A stretch of DNA of 64,000 nucleotides from Chaetoderma sp. LZ-2023a (lineage: Eukaryota > Mollusca > Caudofoveata > Chaetodermatida > Chaetodermatidae): positions 60,552,369 to 60,616,368 of the forward strand of contig CM067370.1 of the NCBI GenBank assembly GCA_034401795.1. Direction: 5' to 3'. Both the position numbers and the translations under genes were made by a program. Of the stretch, positions 10,308 to 38,200 are shown in pieces. Under the pieces are notes generated by a model. The model ran no database searches. It was not told the DNA's origin and worked only from the letters and a program-made list of their open reading frames with translations. Numbering within the stretch: the stretch's first letter is position 1; each line of letters starts with the position of its first letter.

Positions 10308-13300
10308 GTAAGTACATTTCACTAATGCTCATGTTAAAAAGTGATCAAGAAAACACAAACATTCTCAGAAAAATGCCCAGTGTTAGTTCCAAACCCTTAA
10401 TCATAGACTCCTTAAGGCAGGCTTGTACGATTTCCCAATTTAATAAAAACATATTTTGATGTAATCTTAACAAATCTGGAAAATCAAATTTTGTAGAATG
10501 TAAATATCAAAATTGCCAAATGTCAATGTTACCACTTTTTCAATGAAGGATGTACTTTCACTATCGCGTGACATGACCATCTTCAACAATATTTATCCAG
10601 AATGATGTAATACCCTGTCACATGTACCGTACATGTATTATTTTTCAGAAAATTTGTCAGGATTGTGGCCGTCTCTTCTGCACTGGATGTGTTCAGACGA
10701 CGGGAAAGATTAATGGCATTTCTCAACATCGATGCAGCAGCTGCCGTAGCATCGTATGTGGTGAGTTTTCACGCAGTGACCTGATGCGCTTTCGAGTAAA
10801 GGACCTACAATTCTTCCTGCGTAAGAAGAATATTCCATTGACAACATGTACCGAGAAAGACGATTTGATAGAATTGATATTTCAACACTTTGGCGGAGTG
10901 ACATATCATCTATCACAGTTACAACATGAGCAGCATGTCGAGCATTTAGCTGTAAGTGTTTTTGTGCGTAAATACTGATAGGAGCTCTCTCTCTCTCACC
11001 ATATTTACTATCTTCCGATGATTGAGGGATTCATTTTTACCTATTCCCCGTCCATTTCTATCTCATCTCCTCACACTTTGTACAACAGTTGGAATCAATC
11101 TATACATACTTTGAATCCTGAATTACCATAATCCCTATTTCAGGGTAATAGGTAACTATACAGGAAAGCTGTTGAATATTTTGAAACTAATTTGACTGGG
11201 TGCTATTACTGCCTATGTCTATTAAACTAACTCTTAATGGATGAATCCACTTTTAGCTATCTCTAGTTAATCTCCAGCCACACTTTGCCGGTGTTGTAAT
11301 CGACCAAACTCTGAACTCCTTAAATCTCAATTTCCAGAAACTATACAGGTAAGCTGTTGAATATTTTGAAACTAATTTGACTGGTTGCTGTTGCTGTGTG
11401 GCAACAGTGTCCAGTCAAATTTTTTTGACAATATTCAACAGAATGTTTATTGAATAGTAAAGACATACAATTTGTACAACTTACAGATGTGACGACGGTT
11501 GCTATCATATGATCGTAAGATCATACATAGCAATCACGTTTCTATACAATCACGTTAGCTTATGCCACCCGCAACATATTTGGACTCCAAATCCGCTACA
11601 ATATAGGTAGACAGATTGTTATTCAGTCTTGCATGCTTTCTGGTTGATTTAATGAAATAAATTACTTCATGTCAATTATAAAAGCGTAGGGGATATTCGT
11701 AATCGAGATTTACATTTATACAAAATTTATATCAGTTAGAATTAAGATAATTGTATTTGTTATTATGATTAGGTTATAATCAATGTAGATTTCATTATTT
11801 ATAAAATGTATGGAATCTCTATGGATTATTTGAGCAGTTATGTAGGGGTTACAAATCAACATGTTGTTGTATATCCGCGTGATCCAGACGGGTCACAATA
11901 CATTGTGTGCATGTGTTAAAATCGTCGTCTCGACAAGCATTCGGTGGTTAGCCTTCGTGAGAGTTAGTTGCGCCGTAGCGAAGTTGTGATGTAGGCAGCC
12001 ATCGTTTCACGTGTATATATTTCTACGCCGGCCATATACAGCGGCGTGGCTGAGAGAATGTTTCGATTGTGAAGTTCAAATATAAAAATGAGTTTATCAG
12101 CAGTCCTCATACAGATTCGTAAATAGATATGGGCGCCATCTCAGTTTAGGGCCCATTAACAGTTAATTCACGTTTGTCCAGTCAATATACGTTTTGATTT
12201 GTGGGCACAATATGAACTTTCATCCAAGAATCTCTCCATGACTTTGGGTCATTAATATCAGCTATAGCCAGGTCTCCAGCTCCTGGTAATATCATGTGTA
12301 GCCAGGTTTCCAGCTCCTGGTAATATCAGCTATAGCCAGGTCTCCAGCTCCTGGTAGTGTCATCTGCAGCCAGGTCTCCAGCTCCTGGTAATATCATTCG
12401 TAATCAGGTCTCCAACTCCTGGTAGTATCATCCAGAACCAGATTTCCAGCTTCTAATAATATCGTGCGTAACCAGGTCTCCAACTCCTGGTCATCATTGA
12501 CTATCACCAGATAACCAGCTCCTGGTTAACGTGGTTGTGTGTCAGATAACCAGCTTCTGGCCATTCGCTAATCCATCACATCTTTAGCTTCTGGCGGCCC
12601 GTGGCCAGGCCTATTCAGCATTTCAGATCCATCTGCGTCATAAGATGAATTCCAGTCGTTTATATTTTTGTGTTACGCGTTCGTCTGGGTGCACCCACAT
12701 CTTTCCATCATCTTCAATACGATATCAGAATTCGTATTGTGATCATTCGTCCGCAGGACCATTTCGTCTTCAAGCCACAAGGAAATTACTGTTTCCATTG
12801 AGCATTTACAACAGCTATACTACATTCAGGACGTATATTATTGATTTATTATATGAAAATTTTATATTGATTGTTGTCATAACTATTAACACATTAATTA
12901 GGTTAATATTTTCAAGGTTAAGTTCTGAACCAAGAACCGTTAAGTCTTAAGTTTATCGACATAAAATCATACATGCTGCCATAAACTGTGGGGATTATCC
13001 GATGGTCAATATCCATCCCAGGTTCTAAATGATTCAGTAGTCGATAGTGGTCTTATGGATCAGATCGAATGGGGATCATTTTCAACTTGGATAGTGGATG
13101 TACCCGGATCTCATCTTACATTAATTTTGAGCATTTATGATTTCTGAAGTGAACTAAATCGTCTGTGATATTCTTTGAGGATTGATATAAATGACATTGG
13201 ATCGAAAAATCGATTTGATGTGATTGTTATCAAAACTCAAAGAAATAGCAGGGATTGGATCAACCAGGATCAATCCGTTGGATCGATAATGGTCGTTTCG

Positions 13301-16300
13301 ATCTAGATATGACTTCAAGGATTAGAGTTCTTGTTTTGGGTCAAATTAGTTTATGAATATTCAACGTAAGACATTGAGGGTTTCAGTAGTTATAATTTTG
13401 AAATCCTGCTTCAACAGGATCATTTTATATTCATATAATATATCAATTGTAACAATCATGTCAACTGTACAATACTGCTATAATTTTACAACAGATCAGA
13501 AAGTAGGTAAGAATGAATGAATAATATTTTTCAAATCTGTCTGTTTATTTCCTCTTAATTACCACCATATTTTGAATCAATAGGTTAAAGTTCAAATGCT
13601 AATGCAGATTACTCTTCCATACGTCGAGCCAAGATAAGGAAGTGTTGGAATTCACCTCAAATCGGTCACATAAGCTTTCCTTCGAATAAAAGGGTTAACC
13701 ATTGATAATGGAAATCATTTAGATACCCCTAGAATCTATTCTATCGTTTCCATTTTGGGTTAAGCATTTTGGTAAAATAAAATATCCGGTAATCATTTGA
13801 TTAATGACGTCATAATCATTACTGAGGTTTTGTCTTTTGGATAAAACGCATTGGTGTTTCACATCGTACAGTAATCTAATCCACGCCAACATCAGCTAAT
13901 TCCATTACATGGGGCCTCGTTCAAAGCAAAATAATTGTCAATATAATCCTCGGATTTAATAATCAAGTTTTTGACTATTTATTTTAAGTGATTCTCAAAG
14001 ATTAGATATTTTTGGAGATTTTTTATTGAATTAGGTGATTTGTTTAATTTTATATATTTTTTATATTAACGCACAACAAATGACACATTTTATTTAAACA
14101 GGTCATATCTGCATAAGACAGTCAATGGAGTAATCACTGCTACTGCATAAATTAAACAGTTGAATAAATGTATTATATATTTAATTATCACCTTTTTATT
14201 TCGGGCTAAATTCAATTTCTTGTAGATGCTAATTTTGAAAGTTGCTTTTCTTTCAGGTTTCAGATAATTCTAAACCGGTAAAACTTTATAAATATAGTAA
14301 CGCCAAATTCAGCATTATATGGGTTAAAAAATATATATAGTCGCGCTCAGTTAGTTGTTGTCACGACGGCACGCGCGTAACAAAACCTCTGACAGGCGTC
14401 AAATATATTTCAATTGGGTCATTTAACGGATCTAGTTGAACGCTTTCACAGAGCGCAAATAATTTAGCTGGAATTTTTTTTTTTGATTTAAATATTTAAT
14501 TTAGTGTTATGTATTTAGCTATAATTAAATAATTAAGTAATTAAATACGTTAAAAATGGTTTCAATGTTTAAAATTGATTTATATTATACTGCGTTGTTA
14601 ACCGGAACTGCGGATACGTTAGTGGGGCTTGTTATACAGTAACTACATACGGTTAGGTTAACAAACTGTTATAAGATTTAATTTTAAAAACCATTTAATA
14701 AAATCGTACTGTTAAATTTATTTATAAAATTTATCGATTATAACCATAAATGAAGTTTATATTACTAGCTTCGTCTCGAGCTTGTAATTTTGATTCTTAT
14801 CCACAACCAAACTTCCATATTGCATATTTGATTGAGTGAGGTGCCACAATAGAATCAGCTAAAAATCTCGCATTAGAACACTTGAGAAATGAAACAGTAG
14901 CGCAAGATAAAATATTGTTATACTGCTGTATTGGCATAAATGATATCTTGTCGACATTTACCCCTAAATACGGGTGTGAAACTGCCATCATCAACACCTG
15001 TGGAATCAATCTTAGACAAAATAACAGAGTTAAAATCAGTCATTGAATTGGAAAGACAAAGCTTAGTTTTTATGTTTATTGGAATTCCAGTTTGCTCAAT
15101 GATTGACTATACTAATTACAAAATAAAGGATGGTTAGCTGAACAACAGAGCGTAATTAATCATAACACAGTTGTATTGAATAATTTTTTGCGTCAACTAA
15201 CCATCTTGGAAATTTCCGACCCATCACAAATTTTGAATTTGTATTATGGTAGAAATCTTGTCACTTTTTGACTAAAAAATCAAGAGGTCGCTCTAATAGA
15301 TTCAAGGTGGACAAATTTGAAACCAATTATGACATTCTATATGACGGATTACACTGTATCACACGAAAAACGAAATTGGTATAGAGCATTAGTATCAGCA
15401 TTTAGATCTGGATCGCTCAAGTTCTAATTAAAAGTAGATAATTCATATTAGTTACTATATTATATATAATTATATATAATATACTAACAGTTAACCCCCT
15501 TGCTATCTATTATTTATTATTCTTTCAAATAAATATATTATGGAAGCGTTTATAAGTGGATTTGAACAAAATCCATCTATTTCATGAATTGAAACTGTTG
15601 GGAAAAAGTTTTTACTGGCGTTATGTAATCACTACCAGTTACCCACACCACACCCTGTGCTTAAACCTGATTTATTACAATTTACTATCAAGGGTTTAAC
15701 AGACTTGGGCGTTTTTGAGTTTGATGAAGAACAGGATCACAACCCTGCTTCTCCTTTCAATGAAAGGCGTCAAACACCACCAATTGGTGGAGCCAGGCCC
15801 AAGGATATTAATAATGTCAACCCTAAACAACTATATGGTCATCCAGATTCTTTATCAGAAGATGGAAAACATCGAATGCAGTTTAAGATGGCAGAAATGG
15901 CTCTGGAAGGAAAATGCCTTGACCATCAAAGGGCAGAAATGGAATTCAACAGACCTGCGGCTTCTCCACTATTAAATCATACCCATGCATTTAGCATTGC
16001 ACACGAAAGACATGCTGTACCTAAATTTTGGGAACGTGAACCTCAATCATTTTTTGACAGTTTTGAGCAGGCATGCTTAGACAATGCCTGGCCTCCCGTT
16101 CATTGGGCAGCATTGGTACGCACAGCACTGATTGGACGAGCTCAAAAGGCTTGAAGGATCATTACCAGCTGACGACCGGTCTGACTATAACAAGGTAAAG
16201 TCTTGTGTCATTCTGGAATATTCCAGGATCCCAGAAGCATACTGTCAGGAATTCCGAAATAAAAACATCATTAGATACAATTACCTAGGAACAGCAAAGC

Positions 16301-19300
16301 ATCTGCGTCAATGTTTTATGAATTGGGTTAACTCAGAAAAAGTAATGTCTCGAGAGGAATTACAAGAACTATGTATTCTTGAACAATTCAAAGAAATACT
16401 TCCAGATCCTGCACGAGCTTATTTAGATGATAAACCTGAAATACGATCAGTCGACGTAGCAGTAGAAGCGGTTGAACGCTGGAGTATGTCGCGAAATCGA
16501 TCGTACATAGCATCAAATAATTCCCCAAATAATAACAATGATATGGAAAATGACAGACATCAAAACAAATCAGGGTATAAGTCAGGCACCCAACCCAACA
16601 GAAACAACCGTGAACGTGCGACGTCATCCTCTCAAAATAATAAAGCGGTTAAAAATTGTGATCAGTCACCGAGTAATAGTAAATGTTACAATTGTGGTAA
16701 TATAGGCCACTTTGCAGTAAATTGTGCGCAACCACAGAAAAACTTTACTCGGCGCAGGGTGAAGTCATCAATGGCTGTTGATCTTGATGATAAAGAAACG
16801 CAAAGTGAAGAGGACAGCACAACAATTAACCACAGTCAATATGGCTAATTACCCGAACGTGGATAGGGATTATCTCCCTTATTGTTCGACTGGACTGGTG
16901 AGCTTAACTGTAAATAAAACAAGCATGGCACCAGTTCCTGTCATAATACTTCGCGATACGGGGGCTAACCAATCACTGATCTTGCGTTCAGCTCTCCCAT
17001 TCTCAAATGAGACTTACACCGGTAATAGCGTTTTAATCCGAGGTGTCGGCATGAACTTTCTGAAAGTTCCATTACATAAAATCCAGCTACACTCAGATAA
17101 TAAAAAACAAGACGTTATAGTTGGTGCCCGAGAGAAATTACCAATAAAGGGTGTTTCTTTCATTTTAGGTAATGAATTAGCTCGAAATCTTTTGAAGTGA
17201 TGCTGCGTTGGCAGTAGAGCGTAATGCATTACCGATTGTGTCTGATATGCCAGTAACTGATCCTGTAGGCGCTGAGGTGGATCTCTATGGTTTCCCTCTA
17301 CGCGTCGTGACGCGTAGCCGAAGCCGGGATCAAATGGCAGGTGAGGTTAATACGGGAATGGATTCAGACATAACAGCAAAGAACACTTATAAGTGTGTCA
17401 CATTTGTGGATGATCCTGAACTTAAGCTAAGTTCAGGTGAGCTAGCACAACTGCAAATGAAGGATCAGAAATTAAGACGATTAGTTCCTGTTGTCAAGGA
17501 CAAGGAGGAACGTCTTAATTACTGCATCTGTTACTGGTGGGATAGCAGGATCCTGCGACGTAAGTGGACACCAAGAAATGCAAAAACTGATGATGCTTCA
17601 CAAATTATCGAACAGATAGTACTTCCGGTTGAGTATCGTCATAAAATCATATTAAAAGCACACAATGGTCCCGGTTGTGGAAATCATTTCGGAAGGAAGA
17701 AAACGACAGCGATCATCACACGTAATTTTTAATGGCCCAAAATACATGGTGATGTGGTTAAATTTTGTAAAAAATGCCGAACCTGTCAAATGGTCGGAAA
17801 ACCTAATCAACCAATTCCAGTGGCGCCATTAAAACCAATTCCGGCGTTCCAAACTCCTTTTCACTTCAAGAGTATACTTACCTCCCTAATACTTTTGATA
17901 TTGCTAAATATTGGCTTTCACTCAATAAACACTCAGATTTAAAACAGTTAGGTGCCCCTACTGGGCAGGGAGTCAGAGCGTAGTCTGGCGGATGCCAGCC
18001 CCACCTCCGCGCATGCGCAGACTAGCACTTCCTCTTTGCTAGATTATTGGCAGAGAGATCACACATGTCTTTTTGTGCAAAAGCTTTTTCTTATTCTTAA
18101 ACTGTTTAAGTGGTGTTATTTGGAGTGATAGTCACTTTTTTGGATGGCAGGAAGTAACAATTCACCAAAGGAGGACTTAGGACCTTTAAATCAGGTGACT
18201 TCTAGTAAAATTAGCGAGTTTTCTTCCCGGTGTATTGTGTTTCCGGGACTCGCGTTTACCGTGATAAGCGCCTTGGTTAGTTGGTTTATGTCAACTCGGT
18301 GCTACCTAAGGCTAATTTCTCTTTCTGTTTATGTCCACAGGTCTGTATGACGCTAGGTGGTGACATCACAGCAGCAGAGAGTTAGTTTTCTCTCCACCAT
18401 GGTTCCATTTCCTACTAATACTGTTAGGTTATCTAACCAAATGAAAAATTATGTCCAGTGAGTTGGAGGCCTAGTATAAAGGTCTTCTCACTTTGCCCTC
18501 TTGATCCAATTCCTTCCCCATGAGGTGGAGAGAGTTAAGAGGCGTGCAGATGGTGGAGTTCTCCGGTTCGTCACGTTGGATGGTTTGTCTATACAAAGTG
18601 TCAGGTATCTAGTTATTGATAATGTGGTGATGTTAATTATAGTAAACAATCAAAGGGAGATAATTAACATTTTTGCCAGAAAAGAGTTATCTATATGTAT
18701 CTGATGGTTGTGTAGTCGACGTATCCATTCAGCATACAATTCGTCCTTGCACTTGGATGTTTTGTTGGGATCGAATTTTTCCTGTCACGGGATTAATGAC
18801 GTCATAATCAGCCTGGCTATGTATTTATCAGCAATTCAAGTCGCTATGCTGGTTTCTGATGTATATTGATCTTTATGATTGTTTTCCTTCTCTTTGAGTT
18901 GGTTTGAGTGTCTAAGCTTAACTAGTTTGCTCATACTCCTTGTCCTTTGCCCTGTTTCAGGGACCGGGTTGCGCGTCCTGTGGACGTTTTCTACATGAAA
19001 AGTTCTGGCCTCATCTGTGCTATCAATGTAGCCCTTGTGGTCCCTTGGTTAATTGTGACATATGTAAGCACTGGGGGGGGGGAGTTAATGTCCGAATTCT
19101 TGTGCTGCTTACAGGCGACGGACAAGGTGGTAGAGGAGGAGAAGAAGATGAAGCGGAAACGAGAGGTTGTAAGTAGGAAGGGTAAGGGGAAGGTCTCGTC
19201 CGCGGTGGATATGGAGGCCTTCCGGACCGAGATGTTGGGAGAGATGAAGAGGACAATAAAGGATTTGGTTCCAGGGTTGCTTCGTGGCATGCTTCCTGGA

Positions 19301-22300
19301 CCAAATCCTTTACTGTCCTCATCATCGGCTTCGGAGCAGGTAATCCCCGCCTCTGGATCGGTTTTCCTTAGACCGCTTCCGTTGTTCGACGATTCAGAGG
19401 TGGCCCCATTAGAGGGGGCGTTCCACGGCCCTGGCAGCAGGCTTATTGCCGCGCCGAGAGGGGACCGTGGACGGTTGTCGCTGGAACCCGCGGGCTGCTT
19501 ATCAGTCCAGGGGTATCCGCACGCCGCGGTGGCCAGTACCTCCTATGGCACCGTTCCTGGTCAGCCCGGGTTAGCTCTCTTTGCTGACCCGGGGTCTAAT
19601 CTTTCTGACCAGGGTGATGAGGATTACCTGCTAGGGTCGCCGTCTGACGACGTGGACATGGATGAAGACGTTTGTGCACCCCTCGCGGGGAATACAGGCG
19701 GCTTCTTCCACGGTTTTACTCACCCTGGAGTAAAGTCCGCGGCTCAGGTGGTGGCCCAGGGCGCTGCTGATGGCCAGCGGTACCGCATACCTCGGCTTGC
19801 CGAGGGTGTTGCTGGTGCTGGCCGGGCCCGTGGTGGGGCGGTATATACCCCGCGCTCTGCCACGGTGCCTGCTCCTGGTCAAACCAGTGATATTGTCATG
19901 CCGGTGCTATCAGGCCCGCATGTTTTCCCTGGCTTGCCAGGTGTATCAGCGTACCCGCCGTCAAGCTCTGCTGCTTGCGCTCAGGAGGAAGACGAAGGAC
20001 CCCGTCTTGTAGAGCGCTCGCAGTTAGCCACGGAGGAGGATTGGTCTGACGCTTGCCAGTGGTTGGTGAGCGTTAGGCCTGATCTGCCCGTGGAGCAGTC
20101 GCCTAGCCAGCGTGACCACAGGCCGTGGTTAGCTGGGAAACCGACTGCTAACGCTATGCCTTCTCTGCCGCTGGCGGAGCATGTCGTTGACATGTTCAAG
20201 GCGGCGGAGGCGTCCATTAACTCGAGTGGACGTCTCGCGAAGGCCCCTCGCGAGGTGGCCAGGCGTTGTCGCATCGTGCCCCTGGATTACCAGCGGTACG
20301 GTGTGGTACCCAAGCCCAGCGTGGATGACCGCGCGGCTTTGGGTGAGGATGCGCGGCCAGGCTCCCGTTCTGACACGGGGTTCTTGTGTTCGAACGCGTT
20401 GCGTTCGGCGAATGCCGCGTTGCGTGATGCGGAGGAGAGTGGGAGGGCTTCGATTGCCGCTCCGTCCCACGTCTCCCAGCTGTTACAGGGGGTAGTAACG
20501 GCATCCGCATCGCGCCAGCCAAGCCCGGTCACGGTCCAGCGAGCCATCCAGGATGGTATTAACCTGGCGCTGGACTGTATGACTCGGGCGGTGACCAGGA
20601 GTGTCCGGGCAAGACGCACGTTTGCCCTGGACAATCTGTGCCCGTCTCAGGACCTGTACAATAGGCTACTCCGTACGCCTATGACGGGTCCTGGTCTTTT
20701 TGGAGGTGAGGGATGTCGCCACCTCCAGGAGACGGTCACCCTGGTGAATAACCAGAGGGCGCTGCGCGAGCAGTTTGAGGTGCTGCGTCGTGCTAACGTT
20801 CGCGCCGCGGCCCCTGCGTATCGTCCCCTGCAGGCTCGAGGTGGTGCTGGCCAAGTCAGAGGCCAGCCACCGTCGCGGCCTCAGCCGCGTGCGATTCGGC
20901 CAGCAGCGAGGGGGGCGCAGGTTCCTCAGGCGCCGTCAGCCAGGCAGCCGCCCGCGCACCAAGGTGCGCGCGGGGCGGGCGAGGATCTGGGCGTGGTTAT
21001 CGGTCCTGACAGGACGCTTACCGCGGTAAGAACCACTCCGGTGTGTATGGCGACGGAGACAGTGCCGCTCTTGCATGCCTTGTGTCCACCGCGGTCCCTA
21101 GGTGGACCGGTGGGAGGCCGGCTTGCCGGCCACATGCAAGAGTGGGAACGGTTAACTCAGGACCGTTTAGTCTTGCGATGGCTTTCCGTCGGGTATCATC
21201 CAGAGTGGATGACAGGCCCGCCGTCGCGACTGTCTCTAGTGCCAGTCTGGACTCCCATTCCGAGAGATCCAGAGCAAAGGTTGTGTATCGAGGAGGAGAT
21301 AAATTCCCTCGTACAAAAAGGAGCTATTCAGCCGGCACAAAGGTGTCCGGGCTTCTATTCAACCCTGTTCTTAGTAACAAAACGCACCGGAGGGTGGAGA
21401 CCGATTCTCAACCTCAAGCCATTGAACAAGTTCATCGAGACGCCCAGTTTCAAGATGGAAACGGTGCGCTCGGTGTTGGCGGGGTTGGAGAGGGGGATGT
21501 GGACGGCGTCGATAGATTTGAAGGACGCTTATTTCCACATCCCCATCCACGGGAGTTTCTGTCGCTTCCTGAGATTTGCATTCCAGGGCAGACAGTGGGA
21601 ATTCAGGGTGTTGCCCTTCGGAATTTCCACGGCTCCTCGGGTTTTCACCCGTGTGGTTCTTGCGATCACAGCATGCCTCCGCAGGAGAAGCATAGCAGTC
21701 CACACGTACATAGACGACTGGCTGTTGAAAGCGCACACCCGGGAAAGTTTGTCGGCCAATCTGGAGATTGTTTTGAAAACTCTCACAGACTTGGGCTGGA
21801 TGATCAATTTCCCAAAATCAGAGCTGACTCCATCCCAGAAGTTTGTTTACCTGGGGATGTTCTTCGATCTAGAGACAGGATATGTTTATCCTACTCAGGA
21901 GAGAGTTCAGAAACTCATCTCATTAATTCAGTCAGTGTGCGACAGTCGTCATGTCCTGGCACGGGTTTACTTGAGAATGCTGGGGTTGATGGTTTCATTG
22001 GAACCAGTCATTCCTCAGGCCGCCTTACGCAGGCGGCCGATCCAGTTATTTCTCATGACACAATGGACCCAGAGTACAGGTTCGCTGGACTCGAATGTGT
22101 CAGTGTTGGCGCCTCTCATTCACCACCTGCAATGGTGGTTGAATACAGAGAATCTCTTGCCGGGGGTTTTGCTAACCCCTCCCCACCCTCAGGTGACTGT
22201 GTATACAGATGCATCGATGGAGGGCTGGGGAGCTTGCCTGGAAGAGTCCACGATATCAGGGCTTTGGAATCTGGAACAGTCAAAGGAACATATAAATCTA

Positions 22301-25300
22301 CTGGAGCTAAAAGCAGTAGTCCTGGGCCTGGAACATTTCTTACAGAAAGTTCAGGGCAAGATTGTTCTTATTCGTTCAGACAACTCAACAGTTGTGACTT
22401 ACATAAACCGCCAGGGCGGAACGAAGTCGCCCAGTCTCTGTATGATGACATGGAAACTGCTTTGTTGGTGTCTGGATCACCAGATTACCTTGAAAGCAGT
22501 TCATATTCCGGGAAGGTTAAACCTGCTAGCAGACTCATTGAGCCGAAGGATGAGTGTTTTACCCACGGAATGGCAACTAAATCAATGTGTGGCGGATCGT
22601 CTGTTCGACCATTGGGGGAAACCCAACATCGATTTGTTCGCAACGAAGAAGAATGCGAAGATGACGACGTACGTCTCTCCGATTCCGGATCCAAGCGCTT
22701 TCGCAACAGATGCGTTAGCTATCAGCTGGGGGAGAATGTATGCATACGCATTCCCTCCAGCAATCCTGATTCCAAAAATTCTTCAGAAAATCAGACAAGA
22801 GGAATGCCAAGTGCTTCTGATCGCCCCGGATTGGCCAAGCCGATCATGGTATACGGATCTGCTGGACCTTCTGGTCTGCAATCCGGTTCCTCTGCCTCTG
22901 ATGGACGATATTATCTTCCAGGGCAAGGCCCTTCACAACAATCCGTCAATGTTCAGATTGACTGCGTGGATGTTGTCAAGGAATCTAGAATTAAGGAGGG
23001 CTTTTCTGAGCAAGCAGCCATGTTTATGGCCAAAGCCAGGAGGGGGTCAACCTCCAGAGCATATAATTATAAAATCAACAGATTTGCAGAATGGTGCTCA
23101 AAAAGATGTATTGATCCAATGGATTCATCTATTCAAGTAGTAGCTGATTTCCTCTGTCACCTCTATGATGCCTATAGCCTCAAGCCTAACTCTATTGCTG
23201 GTTATAAATCAGCATTAATGTCTGTTATTCCTTGCTTGGCTAAGAGGGGAAGTGATGAAGTAAATACATTAAATGTATTAATTAAAGGCATGGGCAATCT
23301 AAGACCAAGGAATCCACCTGTGATTCCGTCTTGGAGTTTATCGCTAGTGCTTCAAGTACTAGGTGATAAGCCTTTTGAACCACTTAGTTCCATTTCTATG
23401 AAACTATTAACACTGAAGACGGTGTTTTTAATTGCTGCGGCCTCGGCTAGGCGTAGGAGTGAAATTCATGCCTTATCAGCCGAGGATGACCGTTTTGTGG
23501 TTTCAGGGGAAGGCCTTAAGCTGCTACCTAGGATTAATTTCTTGGCTAAAAATCAGTCGTTGAAATATCCAGGTCAACCTATTATTTTGCCTGCTTTAAC
23601 TAGATATGATCCTAATTCTAAAGCATGGTGTCCCGTCCGGGCGCTGCGCCGGTACAAACAACGTACGGCGGAGTGGCGCACCGACCAGTCAGCGTTATGG
23701 TTGTCATATATTGAACCCCATGGCAGGGCTTCTAAGGACACCATTTCCAGGTGGATTGTGGAATGCATTCAGTTTTGCCATAAATCCGCCACCGGGAAGC
23801 AGGTTGACGTGGCCAAGGCTCACAGTGTCCGCGGCGTAGTGACATCCACGGCCCTATTTAATGGGGTCCCTGTGGATGATATTATGTCGGTGGCTCAGTG
23901 GCACTGTGAGTCAAGTTTTACAGACCATTATCTCCGTGACACCTCTAATCCTCTCGCCTTGTCGATTTTGAAAAAATAACTCGGTTTATATTTTTTGAGG
24001 AGGTTTTTCCTCATTACTTATATATTTCACAATTAATTTATGGAAACACCCACTTTTTTGGGCCTGCATCAGTCTTTACCAATGGGAAGATGATGTCAGC
24101 AGCCATTTTCAACAAGGTCAGTCTTGTTCATGTGTTGTCCGTTGTTGATTGTATTGTCACGATTACCCGTTATTAATATGGTGATGGTTTGTGTATTTGT
24201 GTGGTTCATTGTTGAGAGTTACGAAAATGGAGTTTTTTCGTCTCTGTCCTGTAGTACATGGCACTTGTACGTAGAGAGCGTATAGGACATTGAGGTCAGG
24301 CGACTCTTCCTCCCAGGAAGGAGGGGGGGGGGGAGCGCATGTGACATTCGGTCATCTCTCATACATCGGTAGTGTTATCCGATGGTTAGTCAAAACCTGA
24401 CTGTTTTTTCTTACAGTTTCAGAAGTTTAAGTGCCTTAAACGCAGAAAAGCGTATAGGGATGAGCTGGTCTTTTGACCTCGCCTCCCTCCCACCAGATTC
24501 ACTTTCGAATTCTGGCAATATCAAAAGTATTAGGGAGGTAAGTATACTCTTGAAGTGAAATAAACGAAATCTAGGATTTCTTTTTTCACGAGAGAGTTGA
24601 TACTTACCTCCCTAGATACGGACCCGGCCTCTCCACCCCACAGAGGCTCGGTCTTCAGGCTCTTAATAGTTGCATGTGTGTCAGCCAATAATCTAGTCAG
24701 AGGAAGTGCTAGTCTGCGCATGCGCGGAGGTGGGGCTGGCATCCGCCAGACTACGCTCTGACTCCCTGCCCAGTAGGGGCACCTAACTGTTTTAAATCTG
24801 AGTGTTTATTGAGTGAAAGCCAATATTTAGCAATATCAAAAGTATTAGGGAGGTAAGTTTCAACTCTCTCGTGAAAAAAGAAATCCTAGATTTCGTTTAT
24901 TCTACCGCATAATTCTAGATTGTGTAGGAGCGATGCCTAAAACTAAAGCACAAAATCAGTACTTACTAACAATTATGTGTGCCTCAACTCGTTTCGCGGA
25001 GGCGATTCCACTCAGAAATATTACAACGAAATCAGTGGTAAAAGCGTTGATAAAATTTGTTACAATTTTCGGCTTAGCACACGAAATACAATCTGACCAA
25101 GGCTCAAATTTCACGTCAACTGTCTTTGCACAGGTTTGTCAAGAACTTGGCATTAAACATGTCATGTCGACGGCATATCATCCTGAATCACAAGGCGCGT
25201 TAGAACGCATGCATCAAACATTAAAATCGATGCTTAAAAAGTTTTGTCATGAGAGTTTGCGAGACTGGGATGAAGGGGTTAATTTATTAATGTTCTATTT

Positions 25301-28300
25301 ACGGGACACTGTAAATGACTCATTAGGTTATTCACCTAATGAATTAGTCTTTGGTCATACAGTACGGAGTCCATTAACAGTACTTAAAGAACAGTTATTA
25401 ACACCCCAGACTGACCATAATCTTATTGATTACGTCACAAAATTACGTACCCGTTTACATTTTACTCGTACATATGCGGCTGCAAATTTAAAATCGGCAC
25501 AAGTAGATCAGAAGACATGGTATGATAAAAACGCGCGTGAAAGACATTTTGCCATTGGTGACAAAGTATTAAAGCTGACAACAGTAGTAAATAGTCCTCT
25601 TCAAGCGAAATATGAAGGTCCAAATGTTATTGTTAGTCGTGACGGAGATTTAAACTATTGGGTTAAGACACCAGGTAAACGCAAAGCTACTCAGTGTTGC
25701 CATGTTAATTTACTACGTGAGTATGTTGAATGCGATAATATTTCAGATGAAAATCAAAATGTAGTGTCAATTGTTCAGGTCGATTCAAAGGTTTTTAATC
25801 TAGACGATGCAATTGACCTATTGTCAGCAGCAGCAAATTTTTGCGGACCAAAAATGGGTAACTGGAGTGTTAGCTAATTTACCAGATAGCCTTAGTTATC
25901 TCCCCTTCGATCATAGACAAGATGTGGTGAACTTAATAAGAGAATTTTCTGTATTATTTACAAACACACCAGGGCGAACTAATGTAATTAAGCATGATAT
26001 TGATGTAGGTGATGCGAGACCGATCAAATTGGCTCCATATAGAATAAATCCTACAAAATCTGAGATCATTGATCAAGAAGTCGCCTATACGTACGCAAAT
26101 GGCATAATCCAACCGAGTAACAGTCCCTGGAGTAGTCCATGCGTATTGGTACCTAAACCAGATGGTACTTTCCGTTTTTGTACGGATTTTCGCCGGGTTA
26201 ACAGCGCAACAGTCGCAGACACCTTTGTTATTCCCCGAATCGATGATTGTATTGACAAGATCGGAAATGCTCGATTTGTTACTAAATTTGATCTCTTAAA
26301 GGGTTACTGGCAAGTCCCTCTGACAGATCGTGCTAGACCTATATCAGCATTTGTCACAAATAATTCACTATGGGAGTATCGCATGTTACCATTCAGGTTG
26401 AAAAACTCTGGAGCTACTTTTCAGCGACTAATGAATACTCTTGTCGTTTCAATTCAAAATTGTGATTCATACATTGACGACGTCATCATATATTCCAGTG
26501 ATTGGAAATCTCACGTAGATACTATTCGTGAATTTTTTTCTCGAACTAAAGAAGCAGGCTTAGTTATAAACTTAGTTAAGAGCGAAATAGCTAAAGCAGT
26601 AGTGACATATTTAGGTCATGAGGTCGGTCAAGGTCAAGTTCGTCCTAAATCTGCGAAGGTGGAAGCCATACATAATTACCCTGCTCCCACAAATAAAAAA
26701 GAAATTATGTGTTTTCTAGGCATGGCAGGATTTTTTCGAAAATTTTGCAGGAACTTTTCAACCATTGCCGCGCCACTAACAAATTTACTTAAGAAAAACG
26801 TCCCATTTAATTGGACACGTTAGTGTAAAGACGCTTTCGATAAGATCAGGGCTATATTGTATTCAAGTCCAGTCCTTATGGCACCAAATTTCAGCAAGCC
26901 GATGAAATTATTAATCAATGCAAGCGATCTTGGTGCAGGTGCAGTTTTAATACAAACTGACAATGAAAATAATGACCATGCAGTATGTTATTATTCACGC
27001 AAATTTGATAAGCATGAGCTACGCTATTCCACAGTTGAAAAAGAATGTTTAGCGTTAGTAATTGCCTTGCAACATTTTAACATATATCTATGTTCAACTC
27101 GTTTTCCAATCGACATCTACACGGATCATAATCCATTAACTTTTATACAATGTATGTTGGGTAAAAATCAGCGTATATATTGTTGGAGTTTGACAATTCA
27201 ACCCTATTGTCTCAATATCATACACATAAAAGGTCGCGATAATGTACTAGCCGATGCTCTGTCACGCGCCTTCTAATGCAAAAGTCAATATCAACGCATG
27301 AATTTTTTTTTCCTTTTTCACCTCACATGGTGATCAATTTATTTCTCGTAAGGTTGTTAAGATTTTTTATTTAAAAATAAAAAAGTCTATTGAAATATCG
27401 GTCTGGGCTACGGTTAAGCAGTTTTAACGGTGGGCATAAGCTACCGACTTGCCTAACTCTAGATATTTTTTGGCAATTTTTTTTCCGACCGCTAGTTGTG
27501 TCTAATTCATCCTAACGCTAGAATTTACGGATTAAAATTGGGAAACTTTGATTTTTCAGTGAATTTTCTTTCAATCAGAATTTTTGATCTGTGTGCGGTG
27601 AAATTTGGAAATTTTATTTTGCGTAATCAAACAAGGATGATAATTTCGGGTAAAAATGGCCTGTTGACTAAGCCAATGTTAAAAATCCTGAACTTGGCTA
27701 AAATACGATTAGGTATTGGATATAATCAGTAAGATTTTGTTTTTGTTTTTCAGATCATATTACACAGTTAAGGGTTGTACAGAGGATGTATTATAAATTA
27801 ACAGAATACTGTATATGTTTAATTTTCAGGAAATTATGTATTGTGCGTAAATATTATGTTTTTCATTTGACATTGACAAATGGACAAATTATATTTTATT
27901 TTATTTGCTTTATGTTTCTTCTGATCTACCTGGATAAACTTTTTGCATTTTATTAGGAAAATATGAATAATTTTTCAAAAATTATTTTTAACGTTCACGT
28001 AAATCAATAAATAGTGGAATTCCATATTTAAAGAAGAAAAAAAATACAAATTTTCTTGAAACGTGAATACTTTAGTATTCACGTTTCAAGAAAATTTGTA
28101 TTTTTTTTTTCTTTAAATTTAAGCTTAAACCATTTAATGTTTGTTTAATATAGCTTAATTAAACTGATTACGTTTATACGTAATCTCAAACACTAATAGC
28201 AAGTTCTACTTTTATTAAATGGGAAATTTTCTCTCACCCGTTTAATTTTTGTCCTTGAAAATATAAGACAAAAATCTTTTTTTGGTGGAGGCATGTGACT

Positions 28301-31300
28301 ACGGTTGCTATCATATGATCGTAAGATCATACATAGCAATCACATTTCTATACAATCACGTTAGCTTATGCCACCCGCAACATATTTGGACTCCAAATCC
28401 GCTACAATATAGGTAGACAGATTGTTATTCAGTCTTGCATGCTTTCTGGTTGATTTAATGAAATAAATTACTTCATGTCAATTATAAAAGCGTAGGGGAT
28501 ATTCGTAATCGAGATTTACATTTATACAAAATTTATATCAGTTAGAATTAAGATAATTGTATTTGTTATTATGATTAGGTTATAATCAATGTAGATTTCA
28601 TTATTTATAAAATGTATGGAATCTCTATGGATTATTTGAGCAGTTATGTAGTGGTTACAAATCAACATGTTGTTGTATATCCGCGTGATCCAGACGGGTC
28701 ACAATACATTGTGTGCATGTGTTAAAATCGTCGTCTCGACAAGCATTCGGTGGTTAGCCTTCGTGAGAGTTAGTTGCGCCGTAGCGAAGTTGTGATGTAG
28801 GCAGCCATCGTTTCACGTGTATATATTTCTACGCCGGCCATATACAGCGGCGTGGCTGAGAGAATGTTTCGATTGTGAAGTTCAAATATAAAAATGAGTT
28901 TATCAGCAGTCCTCATACAGATTCGTAAATAGATATGGGCGCCATCTCAGTTTAGGGCCCATTAACAGTTAATTCACGTTTGTCCAGTCAATATACGTTT
29001 TGATTTGTGGGCACAATATGAACTTTCATCCAAGAATCTCTCCATGACTTTGGGTCATTAATATCAGCTATAGCCAGGTCTCCAGCTCCTGGTAATATCA
29101 TGTGTAGCCAGGTTTCCAGCTCCTGGTAATATCAGCTATAGCCAGGTCTCCAGCTCCTGCTATTGTCATCTGCAGCCAGGTCTCCAGCTCCTGGTAATAT
29201 CATTCGTAATCAGGTCTCCAACTCCTGGTAGTATCATCCAGAACCAGATTTCCAGCTTCTAATAATATCGTGCGTAACCAGGTCTCCAACTCCTGGTCAT
29301 CATTGACTATCACCAGATAACCAGCTCCTGGTTAACGTGGTTGTGTGTCAGATAACCAGCTTCTGGCCATTCGCTAATCCATCACATCTTTAGCTTCTGG
29401 CAGCCCGTGGCCAGTCCTATTCAGCATTTCAGATCCACCTGCGTCATAAGATGAATTCCAGTCGTTTATATTTTTGTGTTACGCGTTCGTCTGGGTGCAC
29501 CCACATCTTTCCATCATCTTCAATACGATATCAGAATTCGTATTGTGATCATTCGTCCGCAGAACCATTTCGTCTTCAAGCCACAAGGAAATTACTGTTT
29601 CCATTGAGCATTTACAACAGCTATACTACATTCAGGTCGTATATTATTGATTTATTATATGAAAATTTTATATTGATTGTTGTCATAACTATTAACACAT
29701 TAATTAGGTTAATATTTTCAAGGTTAAGTTCTGAACCAAGAACCGTTAAGTCTTAAGTTTATCGGCATAAAATCATACATGCTGCCATAAACTCTGGGGA
29801 TTATCCGATGGTCAATATCCATCCCAGGTTCTAAATGATTCAGTAGTCGATAGTGGTCTTATGGATCAGATCGAATGGGGATCATTTTCAACTTGGATAG
29901 TGGATGTACCCGGATCTCATCTTACATTAATTTTGAGCATTTATGATTTCTGAAGTGAACTAAATCGTCTGTGATATTCTTTGAGTATTGATATAAATGA
30001 CATTGGATCGAAAAATCAATTTGATGTGATTGTTATCAAAACTCAAAGAAAGAGCATGGATTGGATCAACCAGGATCAATCCGTTGGATCGATAATGGTC
30101 GTTTCGATCTAGATATGACTTCAAGGATTAGAGTTCTTGTTTTGGGTCAAATTCCAAAAGGGACTACTAGCGCAGGAATAACTTCTTTGTGAATATGCTA
30201 GTGTCTGTATAGTCACTGATGAAGAAAGTTCTGTTGTTGTTTGCATTCTCTCTGGGTGCCCATCTTGTCACCGTCTGTTTTGCTTGTTGGTAGCGCTTTT
30301 GTGGTACGCTGGGTTTAAGACACTCTGTGGCTAGCTCCTGGCTGAGAAGTGAGCTATCAAGTTTTTGACATGTTTCGTGAATTCTGCAGTGTTGGTGCAA
30401 AATCTGTGCAGGCGGAGAAACTGGCCCTATGGGCTCGCATTCTTGCAAGATGGTGAATTGTCTGAACAATATTCTAGGTAACTGTGGATGTCCATTGGCT
30501 CGGGGAAAAGTGGATCTTTTTATCTTGTGTGAGAGAAACAAGTATATCCAAGAAGCTGACACTGGTGTTGGAGGCTTCCGAGTTGAATTTGATGCTCTGG
30601 TGGCAGCTATTCATGTAGTCAGTTAATTCTTTTAGAGCAGTTTCCATGCTCCAATATCATGAACATATCATCACTGTATCTCAGATAGAGGGCTGGTTGT
30701 GCTGGAGCATTCTGGAGAAGTCATTCTAAGTCTACCATAATATGCATGCATATGTGCATGCTGCTTTGCTGCCCATGGCCGTGCCCCCTACATTTACATG
30801 TACTTCATGGCAGCCTGAGGGTAGCATGTGCTAGCCTGTGACAGTATGTAGAGGCAAGCTCTTTGCCATGTTCGCTATGTTTCCATAGATTCTGTGTTTA
30901 CCATCATATAAATTGCTATATGTAAATCATGGGAGTTATCTTCCTATGTTTGTGCACGATAAGAAAATTATAAATGTTAAGCCTCTAACACTCAAGCCTG
31001 CCAAACATGGCCTTTACAGTGGTGCTGAGAAATGTCCATTTGCAAGCCAAGTGAAGAATATTTTTGAACATTTAGCACTGGAATGCTTGGCTTGATAAGC
31101 TAGCCAGTCATTCCAGTGGTAAATTTTCAGAAATAGTCTTGTCTTGGGCTGCAAATGGACATTTTCTATGAGAAATCTTTTCTTGACAAAATTTGAAGGT
31201 TCAGTGGTTATTAATGTCACAAATGTCACATCCCATTACACACAAATTAGTTGTATAGTTTGTCATTATTATCTTAATTTAATAAACAGGAGCAAATGCG

Positions 31301-32271: not shown

Positions 32272-35200
32272 AAAGAAAGGAACATCATGGTTAATCATAC
32301 TGGACCCAAACTTGGACAAATGCCTCCTTATAATGACGGAGCATCACACAATTATGTTGTGGCCAAAAGGTCAAAGGTCAAGGCCACTGTGACCTTGGTA
32401 AAAACATTGGTTGTTATTGCACCACAAAAACATCCATTACCGTTCAATCACTACTTGCTAAATCAAATATCTGCATTTAGCTATCAGAATAAATTTGTTA
32501 TTCTTGCTTACATACTCCCTAATGGCAATACCATCACCATGTAGACCCTCAACCAGGCTTCTGGTAGAGGGACCCCCTGTATTAGCCATACAATAGACTG
32601 GCACCAGTCTGTACTCACTCCATGGTGACGCATGTCACTAAGCACACTCGCGCATGCGCAATAGGTCCCAAACGTGAAAACTGATTCACTTTTCAAATAT
32701 TCTGCTAGCAGATCAGATGCCTGCTGTCAAATTAAGGACAAAAGTTTATAGCTTTGCACTGAAAAGTTCAGCTACATTTATCTCTGACTCAAGAAAACAT
32801 GCCTACCATGAAATCAATCTTGCCTAAGTTATGTTTAACTTTCATGTCATGGTGTTTTAGAGGTTTTTGTAACTCTAGTTTTGAGTTACCAGTTTTCGTG
32901 TCAGTACTCCCGTTTTCGAGCTTTGAGAAACCATGCCTATTATATACCATCAAATATACCATGTTATAAAATAGCCAATACCACTCTTATTACGTAGATC
33001 CTATATAGTGCTTTCAAACAATTCTATTCAGGAATCTTTGTGATTCCGTCTTCAGTCAGTATTGTTAAGTGTGTGTTTGACTTCTCCTCGGTAAGCTTTT
33101 CTCATTAGTTTTAATGAAGCTAGTGCTTTATTTCCTATCCTTTTATTTATAGGATGTAGTTTTAACTTCTGAGAGAGTAAAATGTTCGTCAGGAAAATAC
33201 GATCGTTTACATGCCAAAGACTTTGCGGGTCACGTTTGCTTGAAGTGTACCACTTGCTCCCCGTTTAAAATGTGTAGGATTGTAAGGGCTGGCCGTTGGT
33301 TGTATCCAAAACATTTTTTAAGGATTTTGTATCAAAGCCTGCTTTCCCCTTCGGTCGCTCCCCCTCCGTTGTTGACTGTACCAAGGCAGTAACTACGGCC
33401 TCTACCGTGGTCAAAACGTCTGTATAAGAGGGGGCTCCTCTTCTAGTACCAATTCTGATACTGTTATGGCGTTATTCGCAAGATTCGAATCATTTGCAAG
33501 TGTGCTAACCAAGTCGCTAGACGAACGAATATCGTCTGCGATCAAAGCTGCCAAAGAGAAGTCGTCAGACTCTGAGCATAGTCCCCATTCTGGCGGTCAT
33601 TCTCGTAAGTGGGGCAAGCCGATTTCACTCACCTCGAGACAAGAGATGAAATCTCCGAAATCAAAGTCTGGTGATTCTAAGAAAAAGTCTGGTAAATCAT
33701 CCTCAGGTAGGAGCTAGACAAAAGACCATATAAGTCTTGAGGGTCCGCATAACCCTTATGCGATGGCATCGGTGGCGGAAGCTTCCTCCGATCCTTCACC
33801 TCATGCAAAAGTTCATTTTTCCGTAATTCCCATTGCCAGAAATGTTTTAAGATCACCGATCGCCTCTGCTCCTGGCTTGTCTGGGCAAGCGGGTTTGCAT
33901 TCCAGTTTGTCTTCTGGTTTGACCAGGCATCTGGAAATGAGCACTTATTGTTACTGGCTTAGCTGAACATCCGGTGTCTCATGATAATCTGCCTTTTCCA
34001 TCCACATCCGTTTCCGGTTTTTCCGTTTCCGGCAGTAGTGTTGCTGATTTCACTTCAAGAGTATACTTACCTCCCTAATACTTTTGATATTGCTAAATAT
34101 TGGCTTTCACTCAATAAACACTCAGATTTAAAACAGTTAGGTGCCCCTACTGGGCAGGGAGTCAGAGCGTAGTCTGGCGGATGCCAGCCCCACCACCGCG
34201 CATGCGCAGACTAGCACTTCCTCTTTGCTAGATTATTGGCAAAGAGAACACACATGTCTTTTTGAATCATAAGCTTTTCTTACTCTTAAACTGTTAATTA
34301 GTGTATATTTTGGAGTGATAGTATCTGATTTGGATGGCAGGAGGGTACACTTCGCCACAGGAGGACTTAGGACCTTTAAATCAGGTGACTTCTAGTAAAA
34401 TTAGCGAGTTTTCTTCCCGGTGTATTGTGTTTCCGGGACTCGCGTTTACCGTGATAAGCGCCTTGGTTAGTTGGTTTATGTCAACTCGGTGCTACCTAGG
34501 GCTAATTTCTCTTTCTGTTTATGTCCACAGGTCTGTATGACGCTAGGTGGTGACATCACAGTAGCAGAGAGTTAGTTTTCTCTCCACCATGGTTCCATTT
34601 CCTACTAACACTGTTAGGTTATCTAACCAAATGAAAAATTATGTCCAGTGAGTTGGAGGCCTAGTATAAAGGTCTTCTCACTTTGCCCTCTTGATCCAAT
34701 TCCTTCCCCATGAGGTGGAGAGAGTTAAGAGGCGTGCAGATGGTGGAGTTCTCCGGTTCGTCACGTTGGATGGTTTGTCTATACAAAGTGTCAGGTATCT
34801 AGTTATTGATAATGTGGTGATGTTAATTATTGTAAACAAACAAAGGGAGATAATTAACATTTTTGCCAGAAAAGAGTTATCTATATGTATCTGATGGTTG
34901 TGTAGTCGACTTATCCATTCAGCATACAATTCGTCCTTGCACTTGGATGTTTTGTTGGGATCGAATTTTTCCTGTCACGGGATTAATGACGTCATAATCA
35001 GCCTGGCTATGTATTTATCAGCAATTCAAGCGCTATGCTGGTTTCTGATGTATATTGATCTTTATGATCGTTTTCCTTCTCTTTGAGTTGGATTGAGTTT
35101 CTAAGCTTAACTAGTTGCTCATACTCCTTGTCCTTTGCCCTGTTTCAGGGACCGGGTTGCGCGTCCTGTGGACGTTTTCTTCATGAAAAGTTCTGGCCTC

Positions 35201-38200
35201 ATCTGTGCTATCAATGTAGCCCTTGTGGTCCCTTGGTTAATTGTGACATATGTAAGCACTGGGGGGGCGAGTTAATGTCCGAATTCTTGTGCTGCTTACA
35301 GGCGACGGACAAGGTGGTAGAGGAGGAGAAGAAGAAGAAGCGGAAACGAGAGGTTGTAAGTAGGAAGGGTAAGGGGAAGGTCTCGTCCGCGGTGGATATG
35401 GAGGCCTTCCGGACCGAGATGTTGGGAGAGATGAAGAGGACAATAAAGGATTTGGTTCCAGGGTTGCTTCGTGGCATGCTTCCTGGACCAAATCCTTTAC
35501 TGTCCTCATCATCGGCTTCGGAGCAGGTAATCCCCGCCTCTGGATCGATTTTCCTTAGACCGCTTCCGTTGTTCGACGATTCAGAGGTGGCCCCATTAGA
35601 GGGGGCGTTCCACGACCCTGGCAGCAGGCTTATTGCCGCGCCGATAGGGGACCGTGGACGGTTGTCGCTGGAACCCGCGGGCTGCTTATCAGTCCAGGGG
35701 TATCCGCACGCCGCGGTGGCCAGTACCTCCTATGGCACCGTTCCTGGTCAGCCCGGGTTAGCTCTCTTTGCTGACCCGGGGTCTAATCTTTCTGACCAGG
35801 GTGATGAGGATTACCTGCTAGGGTCGCCGTCTGACGACGTGGACATGGATGAAGACGTTTGTGCACCCCTCGCGGGGAATACAGGCGGCTTATTCCACGG
35901 TTTTACTCTCCCTGGAGTAGAGTCCGCGGCTCAGGTGGTGGCCCAGGGCGCTGCTGATGGCCAGCGGTACCGCATATCTCGGCTTGCCGAGGGTGTTGCT
36001 GGTGCTGGCCGGGCCCGTGGTGGGGCTATATATACCCCGCGCTCTGCCACGGTGCCTGCTCCTGGTCAAACCAGTGATATTCTCATGCCGGTGCTGTCAG
36101 GCCCGCATGTTTTCCCTGGCTTGCCAGGTGTATCAGCGTACCCGCCGTCAAGCTCTACTGCTTGCGCTCAGGAGGAAGACGAAGGACCCCGTCTTGTAGA
36201 GCGCTCGCAGTTAGCCACGGAGGAGGATTGGTATGACGCTTGCCAGTGGTTGGTGAGCGTTAGGCCTGATCTGCCCGTGGAGCAGTCGGCTAGCCAGCGT
36301 GTTCACACGCCGTGGTTAGCTGGGAAACCGACTGCTAACGCTATGCCTTCTCTGCCGCTGGCGGAGCATGTCGTTGACATGTTCAAGGCGGCGGAGACGT
36401 CCATTAACTCGAGTGGACGTCTCGCGAAGGCCCCTCGCGAGGTGGCCAGGCGTTGTCGCATCGTGCCCCTGGATTACCAGCGGTACGGTGTGGTACCCAA
36501 GCCCAGCGTGGATGACCGCGCGGCTTTGGGTGAGGATGCGCGGCCAGGCTCCCGTTCTGACACGGGGGTCTTGTGCTCGAACGCGTTGCGTTCGGCGAAT
36601 ACCGCGTTGCGTGATGCGGAGGAGAGTGGGAGGGCTTCGATTGCCGCTCTGTCCCACGTCTCCCAGCTGTTACAGGGGGTAGTAACGGCATCCGCATCGC
36701 GCCAGCCAAGCCCGGTCACGGTCCAGCGAGCCATCCAGGATGGTATTAACCTGGCGCTGGACTGTATGACTCGGGCGGTGACCAGGAGTGTCCGGGCAAG
36801 ACGCACGTTTGCCCTGGACAATCTGTGCCCGTCTCAGGACCTGTACAATAGGCTACTCCGTACGCCTATGACGGGTCCTGGTCTTTTTGGAGGTGAGGGA
36901 TGTCGCCACCTCCAGGAGACGGTCACCCTGGTGAATAACCAGAGGGCGCTGCGCGAGCAGTTTGAAGTGCTGCGTCGTGCTAACGTTCGCGCCGCGGCCC
37001 CTGCGTATCGTCCCCTACAGGCTCGAGGTGGTGCTGGCCAAGTCAGAGGCCAGCCACCGTCGCAGCGTCGGCCTCGGCCGCGTGCGATTCGGCCAGCAGC
37101 GAGGGGGGCGCAGGTTCCTCAGGCGCCGTCAGCCAGGCAGCTGCCCGCGCACCGAGGTGCGCGCGGGGCGGGGCGGGGCGGGGCGCGCGAGGATCTGGGC
37201 GTGGTTATCGGTCCTGACAGGACGCTTACCGCGGTAAGAACCACTCCGGTGTGTATGGCAACGGAGACAGTGCCGCTCTTGCATGCCTTGTGTCCACCGC
37301 GGTCCCTAGGTGGACCGGTGGGAGGCCGGCTAGCCGGCCACATGCAAGAGTGGGAACGGTTGACTCAGGACCGTTTAGTCTTGCGATGGCTTTCCGTCGG
37401 GTATCATCCAGAGTGGATGACAGGCCCGCCGTCGCGACTGTCTCTAGTGCCAGTCTGGACTCCCATTCCGAGAGAGCCAGAGCAAAGGTTGTGTATCGAG
37501 GAGGAGATAAATTCCCTCGTACAAAAAGGAGCTATTCAGCCGGCACAAAGGTGTCCGGGCTTCTATTCAACCCTGTTCTTAGTAACAAAACGCACCGGAG
37601 GGTGGAGACCGATTCTCAACCTCAAGCCATTGAACAAGTTCATCGAGACGCCCAGTTTCAAGATGGAAACGGTGCGCTCGGTGTTGGCGGGGTTGGAGAG
37701 GGGGATGTGGACGGCGTCGATAGATTTGAAGGACGCTTATTTCCACATCCCCATCCACGGGAGTTTCTGTCGCTTCCTGAGATTTGCATTCCAGGGCAGA
37801 CAGTGGGAATTCAGGGTGTTACCCTTCGGAATTTCCACGGCTCCTCGGGTTTTCACCCGTGTGGTTCTTGCGATCACAGCATACCTCCGCAGGAGAAGCA
37901 TAGCAGTCCACACGTACATAGACGACTGGCTGTTGAAAGCGCACACCCGGGAAAGTTTGTCGGCCAATCTGGAGATTGTTTTGAAAACTCTCACAGACTT
38001 AGGCTGGATGATCAATTTCCCAAAATCAGAGCTGACTCCATCCCAGAAGTTTGTTTACCTGGGGATGTTCTTCGATCTAGAGACAGGATATGTGTATCCT
38101 ACTCAGGAGAGAGTTCAGAAACTCATCTCGTTAATTCAGTCAGTGTGCGACAGTCGTCATGTCCTGGCACGGGTTTACTTGAGAATGCTGGGGTTGATGG

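Follow-up and report, generated by a model that had tools for sequence, protein, structure and literature searches.

An integrase-first, Gmr1-like Ty3/gypsy retrotransposon family in a caudofoveate mollusc, with a candidate readthrough stop codon between gag and pol

Gmr1 of cod and the fish elements Gmr1-4 share with the element described here, as far as the available parts of the published accounts go, an integrase (INT) upstream of the reverse transcriptase (RT), an RT of Ty3/gypsy type and a SCAN-type capsid, the last of these having been published as a feature of Gmr1-like Gag. In the same partial accounts, Gmr1-like elements have already been reported from fish, frogs, tunicates, crustaceans and an annelid, those of protostomes being in print since 2013 and that of the annelid since 2021. 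The portions available of the literature on Gmr1 together with retrotransposons, molluscs and bivalves contain no Gmr1 element reported from a mollusc, and the available part of a mollusc survey names Gmr1 once, as background. The integrase-first order of the present element is real, yet already described in other animals, and in view of these earlier protostome reports the suggestion in the initial annotation that the element extends the host range of the group, or documents transfer, is not supported. Because Gmr1-like elements have been published from several animal groups, the family is regarded as a new one within a known kind.

The DNA analysed (the window) is a stretch of 64,000 nucleotides from the genome of Chaetoderma sp. 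LZ-2023a, and all the features given below lie on its plus strand. The element is bounded by long terminal repeats (LTRs; 11487–13347, with the TG start probably at 11488, and 28293–30153) of 1861 bp each, which differ by 16 mismatches and no gaps (99.14% identity); the 5′ LTR houses seven 34-bp tandem units at 12253–12491. A 2.2-kb leader (13348–15587) without a frame of 120 aa precedes gag (15588–16848), which occupies two frames and specifies an N-terminal part, a SCAN-type capsid and a CCHC motif (Pfam over 16132–16848: SCAN, PF02023, 8e-10; zf-CCHC, 3e-6). In three other copies the distance from LTR to SCAN is similar to or longer than that in the window. The aspartic protease (PR; 16763–17200), whose frame in this copy differs from that of gag, contains DTGA, its RVP match (0.002) being below the cut-off of that profile. 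There follows the N-terminal HHCC part of the integrase (17196–17860), which has an in-frame stop: the H2C2 match over 17196–17732 (3e-4, below cut-off) lies in a frame that stops there, and the CC half is found beyond the stop, reaching the junction with a nested element (17861–24899). On the far side of the latter lie the catalytic core and C-terminal part of the integrase (24900–25877; rve over 24849–25877, 2e-14; Integrase_p58_C, weak), with the catalytic D/D/E at columns 7/66/102 of the INT alignment, hence D-x35-E; then RT (25804–26823; RVT_1, 4e-25), whose YIDD was found in the RT alignment, and RNase H (RH; 26824–27276; Pfam match, 2e-30). The 3′ non-coding part (27277–28292) ends in a purine-rich tract directly before the 3′ LTR, and between RNase H and that LTR there is no stop-to-stop frame of at least 120 aa and no integrase. 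The initial annotation's account of the domains (a gag with CCHC, followed by a DTGA protease, an integrase with both HHCC and D,D-35-E, an RT with YIDD and finally RNase H) was confirmed. No env frame was seen in the element, a point of likeness to the Gmr1 clade. A copia origin of RT or INT was rejected, Ty3 being the best match of both among solved chains; for RT it scored E 4e-73, the other solved RTs being listed behind it, down to 1e-10.

At the edges of the window copy, allowing a few bases of play, no target-site duplication of 4–7 bp was found, and no TGG-type start of a primer site was seen after its 5′ LTR; the self-complementary matches at the LTR/leader edge consist of one 9-mer and a palindrome of 10 nt, together with the shorter words inside the palindrome. 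The element occupies part of an intron in an RNF34/RFFL-like gene and has the orientation of that gene. The copy is defective, because its coding parts are spread over several frames, and we are confident that it represents an insertion of a Gmr1-like Ty3/gypsy family, recent though defective, where recent means that the LTRs are 0.9% apart, with no clock applied.

The nested element, which the initial annotation had not mentioned, is about 7 kb long and splits the integrase; because it sits inside, the host element spans 18.7 kb in the window, and about 11.6 kb without it. It is DIRS-like: as in DIRS1-like elements, there are inverted terminal repeats (of 160 nt), RT and RNase H, and no target-site duplication. 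The site is empty in all three other copies compared, and set against the empty site the window has no duplication around the insertion, which lies at a TTT. Self-comparison of the stretch bearing it gave self-complementary segments. Its RT/RH frame (18926–23140) matches RVT_1 (1e-21), and a frame at 21010–23979, with a Phage_int_SAM_1 match (0.0045) below the cut-off, is taken by us, also for its resemblance to such enzymes, to encode a probable tyrosine recombinase. The sequence indicates that this insertion into the integrase came later than the Gmr1-like element itself. Nested DIRS insertion, like rearrangement, was rejected as the source of the integrase-first order, which is the same in DIRS-free copies.

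The claim that a Ty3/gypsy element here carries its integrase before RT holds for the window and for all eight longer relatives read, and among the copies read, none was found with INT after RNase H. INT precedes RT in six of six longer SCAN-carrying copies read from the same genome (L068, L069, L070, L075, L076 and L077), as well as in L009 and L011, two contigs of another source. Thirty SCAN loci extend only 1.5 kb beyond SCAN, and 24 of them have H2C2 and/or INT downstream of it with no RT between; three others have only PR (L040, L044, L047) and two have nothing (L038, L043), while L045 is a deleted copy in which PR is followed by the end of RT and RNase H, INT being missing. Probing the genome with the LTR gave 672 candidates, of which 40 matches were scored, two of them the window's own. 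Among 15 other gypsy loci of this genome, used as controls, 14 have the order RT-RH-INT and one has INT only. The SCAN profile matched one family gag and none of nine control frames from standard-order elements, these being the frames upstream of or including RT; CCHC is present in five, and the four without it may consequently not be gag. A pattern scan of genome contigs returned 14 loci, with an element in two (L009 and L011), nothing in 11, and a 22-aa RNase H match (4e-4) in L013; no relatives were found in viral contigs, nor by a protein search of genome contigs. The contigs of L009 and L011 are filed under the Heimdallarchaeota MAG B3_Heim, and are probably animal DNA mis-binned there. 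The many copies in one 2.4-Gb genome mean that the copia-like order is stable in this gypsy lineage, and the integrase-first order is common to at least two deep lineages, whose host also harbours gypsy elements of standard order.

It might be supposed that INT and RT/RH belong to two mutually nested elements, so that their order is an accident of the locus, since a nested element is really present and the window integrase is split around it. Against this, the INT core, RT and RNase H of the window are collinear, at 94–97% identity, with three of the six longer SCAN copies, from which the DIRS-like element is absent, and the integrase-first order is contained in one open frame both in L068 and in L009 (gag-PR-INT-RT-RH, 1718 aa); such nesting is scarcely credible. 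L011, which starts near the CCHC region, has an open frame of 1244 aa (CCHC-PR-INT-RT-RH). A standard gypsy family whose INT moved once by rearrangement, independently of Gmr1, would be a case of convergence, and this too is very unlikely. The trees test the grouping of INT-first elements among themselves, rather than with published Gmr1, Mag, Cer or copia sequences; omitted were L034 (INT only, order unknown), INT pieces below 90 aa (L036) and RT pieces below 150 aa. With all rows, a branch separates the INT-first elements from the rest, with support of 64/44 for RT, which is weak, and 91/94 for INT; without two decayed rows (L029 and L035) the values are 100/99 and 97/95. The weak RT branch, and a tree test confined to relations among INT-first elements, leave some room for convergence; against it stand the SCAN-type capsid, a trait described for Gmr1-like Gag in the accounts available in part, and the grouping of the window family with the L068 lineage and with L009 and L011. 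The proposed membership with Gmr1 itself rests on gene order, on the SCAN capsid and on the relatedness of the INT-first elements to one another.

The gag/pol junction was compared in 20 short stretches, one of which is the window copy (L097). Seven of the other 19 (L082–L086, L088 and L090) match the window gag over most of their length, L082 being gapped at the junction; those of the seven that span the junction, together with L075–L077, make up nine junction copies. In all nine a stop codon (TAA in seven, TAG in two) is followed by CAATTA; the window copy has no in-frame stop at this point. As a background rate, the plus strand of the window has 3470 stop trinucleotides, of which 10 precede CARYYA. 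Given that gag and pol of the other copies are split by a stop in this stop-CARYYA context, Gag-Pol may arise by readthrough. The sister copy L045 has TGA then CGCGAT at the junction, so that the context is not common beyond the window family. None of the nine has gag and pol joined in a single frame in the manner of fish Gmr1-4, a feature that was not taken as clade-defining. There is an even chance that the stop is instead an ancient inactivating mutation, propagated as the element copied itself, with pol made otherwise or the sampled copies all dead. Among the copies read, none of this family was intact, six of the nine are decayed around the junction, L045 differs in both stop and context, and gag-pol frames are fused in L009, in L046 and, by the partial accounts, in fish Gmr1-4; on the other side, both the stop and the CAATTA after it are retained throughout the nine, and in L075, L076 and L077 no other stop occurs from the start of the stretch read to the protease DTG. 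Whether the family makes Gag-Pol by readthrough of a stop, rather than from a fused frame like that of fish Gmr1, is finely balanced on the sequences, and it is a more tentative suggestion that the large-LTR branch of Gmr1 elements does so in a tobamovirus-type CAR-YYA context. If true, a stop in a known readthrough context may set the ratio of Gag to Gag-Pol in one branch of the clade. The available portions of the Gmr1-like literature examined contain no such readthrough strategy.

In the life cycle proposed for the family, the LTR would drive genomic RNA, Gag would build the particle through its SCAN-type dimerisation domain (resembling the C-terminal domain of retroviral CA), and pol would be translated as an extension of Gag, giving Gag-Pol. 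Insertion of the cDNA would fall to the integrase, whose coding region precedes that of RT, as it does in copia elements, and would follow the chemistry usual for D,D-35-E enzymes. The window copy is unlikely to move by itself, because its integrase is split and stop-bearing and its frames are broken.

Comparison with known systems draws, for the published elements, on accounts available in part. The candidate readthrough stop at the junction resembles that of tobacco mosaic virus, where a stop followed by CAR-YYA forms a readthrough context; and in the yeast retrotransposon Tca2, too, gag and pol are split by one stop, readthrough of which was not detected in baker's yeast. L009 and L011 have the same order in open frames and are 55–56% identical to the window element in RT and INT, L009 differing from the window family in its fused gag-pol. 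Crustacean elements such as GyRex4, and LGF3 of an annelid, are likewise protostome Gmr1-like elements, compared here by their descriptions. The fish elements Gmr1-4 differ from the window element: their LTRs measure 337–518 bp, against 1861 bp for those of the window, which bears out the initial description of the latter as large; they are 6.1–6.5 kb long, against about 11.6 kb for the window element without DIRS; and they have one frame of 1506–1634 aa, whereas gag and pol of the window family are divided by a stop.

The integrase-first element lies between two LTRs of 1861 bp each (11487-13347 and 28293-30153), which differ at 16 positions in a gap-free alignment. Between them Pfam identifies, in order, a SCAN-type capsid, a CCHC knuckle, a retroviral protease, the H2C2 finger and core of integrase (INT), reverse transcriptase (RT) and RNase H (RH). 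The protease, in which DTGA is present, and the H2C2 finger, whose frame terminates at a stop, both score weakly; alignments of this copy with its relatives show D,D-35-E spacing in INT and YIDD in RT. Between RH and the 3' LTR, a scan for frames revealed none that reaches 120 aa. The initial annotation, which had listed the LTRs, a CCHC gag, DTGA protease and an integrase with HHCC and D,D-35-E, followed by RT with YIDD and RH, described the copy correctly: the element is real, and the right kind was named. Neither a target-site duplication at 11487 / 30153 nor a TGG-type primer site was found for this copy.

Absent from that annotation is a DIRS-like insert that splits the integrase. Its limits, 17861-24899 (7039 bp), were set by comparison with family members L075, L076 and L077 from the same genome, in which the window sequence ending at 17860 and that resuming at 24900 align to adjoining bases, with an overlap of two. 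It bears a 160-nt inverted repeat (17876-18035 and 24699-24858; 100% complementary), an RT/RH frame and another long frame, probably encoding a tyrosine recombinase to judge from a weak match. The empty site in L076 is TTT and there is no duplication on either side of the insert, in agreement with the integration at a 3-bp match expected of DIRS1-like elements (PMC3266345). A second copy, 98.4% alike, occupies about 34048-41107 within a different, outer DIRS-like element (32437-43881) whose 261-nt arms (32437-32697 and 43621-43881) are 92% complementary. Remnants of a further DIRS-like element, with RT/RH-like and recombinase-like frames, lie at 1-3600; blastn found no DNA match between them and the DIRS at 17861-24899.

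Exons of an RNF34/RFFL-type ubiquitin ligase, at 10577-10975 (SAP), 50769-51005 and 54396-54674 (RING), are on the same strand as the Gmr1 copy. From their domain order and splice-like edges we infer that this copy and the nested DIRS pair would lie inside a roughly 40-kb intron of an RNF34/RFFL-like gene. This gene marks the host as an animal. At 48389-49424, frames on both strands resemble a Penelope-type GIY-YIG region; one frame tested there gave no Pfam match.

The genome of origin (2.44 Gb, 2753 contigs) contains at least 148 SCAN matches, the window's own included, among the 150 of 268 candidates scored. In 24 of 30 SCAN loci fetched, SCAN is followed by the H2C2 finger, the INT core or both, without an intervening RT. 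All six longer copies read (L068, L069, L070 and L075-L077) have INT, then RT, then RH, and in none does INT follow RH. L068 holds H2C2-INT-RT-RH in a single 1276-aa frame, and L075-L077 are 94-97% identical to the window copy across long aligned pieces. INT-RT-RH also recurs in L009 (NJBF01000089.1), within an open frame of 1718 aa, and in L011 (NJBF01000101.1), within one of 1244 aa; their RT and INT are 55-56% identical to those of the window. That the window order is a rearrangement is ruled out by these six copies together with L009 and L011. Among 15 control loci, other integrase cores picked from rve matches in the same genome, 14 have RT-RH-INT and one has INT only. A relative, L045 (identity 75-78% over two stretches), is without INT and the greater part of RT; this is a deletion rather than a moved integrase.

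L009 and L011, filed under the Heimdallarchaeota MAG B3_Heim, are contigs consisting essentially of Gmr1-like retrotransposons, and are most likely animal DNA mis-binned into an archaeal genome. The window's genome also harbours a second INT-first lineage, whose Gag is of SCAN type (L068, L070 and most of L046-L067); many of its loci share the same scores and have long open frames, so that it looks younger.

The nearest solved chain to the window RT and INT is Ty3 (4e-73 and 4e-25, respectively). In trees built from single-frame pieces (support as ultrafast bootstrap/SH-aLRT), the nine INT-first rows form one side of a branch, at 64/44 for RT and 91/94 for INT, both below the tool's mark for firm support. 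Removal of the decayed, long-branch rows L029 and L035 raises these to 100/99 and 97/95, the weaker values being those from complete data. In the full trees the window, L009, L011, L069 and L075-L077 group together at 100/99 (RT) and 99/98 (INT). The window capsid weakly matches the SCAN structures of PEG3, ZNF174 and ZNF24 (E 5e-4 to 0.03); SCAN is found in none of nine control frames, of which five have CCHC, but is present in the single family gag given, that of L076. One review derives SCAN from Gmr1-like Gag, and another describes the two as strikingly homologous.

In L075-L077 gag and protease occupy one frame with a single stop between them, and the junction was compared in these and seven further members (L082-L086, L088 and L090). 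The stop is followed by CAATTA in all nine holding the junction (L082 has a gap there), and is TAA in seven and TAG in two (L083 and L084); the window copy has its gag and protease in separate frames, and this stop is not in frame there. CAATTA conforms to CAR-YYA, a context that in tobacco mosaic virus is reported to direct readthrough on its own, and the tobacco signal is active also in yeast, human and Xenopus systems (PMC2194720); CARYYA follows 10 of 3470 stop trinucleotides on the window's plus strand. Readthrough at the family junction would on this evidence have about an even chance. Against it, the copies have common descent, the junction region is decayed in six of the nine, the same stop-CAATTA occurs out of frame (as judged by eye) in their integrase, and sister copy L045 has TGA CGCGAT at the corresponding position. 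The junction stop is the sole point of this element worth a bench test.

Of 672 candidates for a 788-bp LTR probe, 40 matches were scored; two of these are the window's own and the others are 96-97% identical. The distance from probe to SCAN is 3.67 kb in the window and 3.72, 3.84 and 4.26 kb on contigs C11, C15 and C14; a long leader is therefore a family trait and not an extra insertion in the window copy. At L073 (C1:83616235-83617022) a family LTR is preceded by a purine-rich tract and followed by the leader, as in a tandem element with a common middle LTR.

For Gmr1-4, a fish survey tabulates LTRs of 337-518 bp, total lengths of 6.1-6.5 kb and a gag-pol frame spanning 1506-1634 aa; the window LTR has 1861 bp and the copy, minus the DIRS, about 11.6 kb. 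Gmr1-like elements have already been published from protostomes, both crustaceans and an annelid; a polychaete survey places the Gmr1 clade in several phyla and reports the annelid Gmr1 group as missing from its own data. The window element is thus a new family of Gmr1-like elements, ordinary for the clade.
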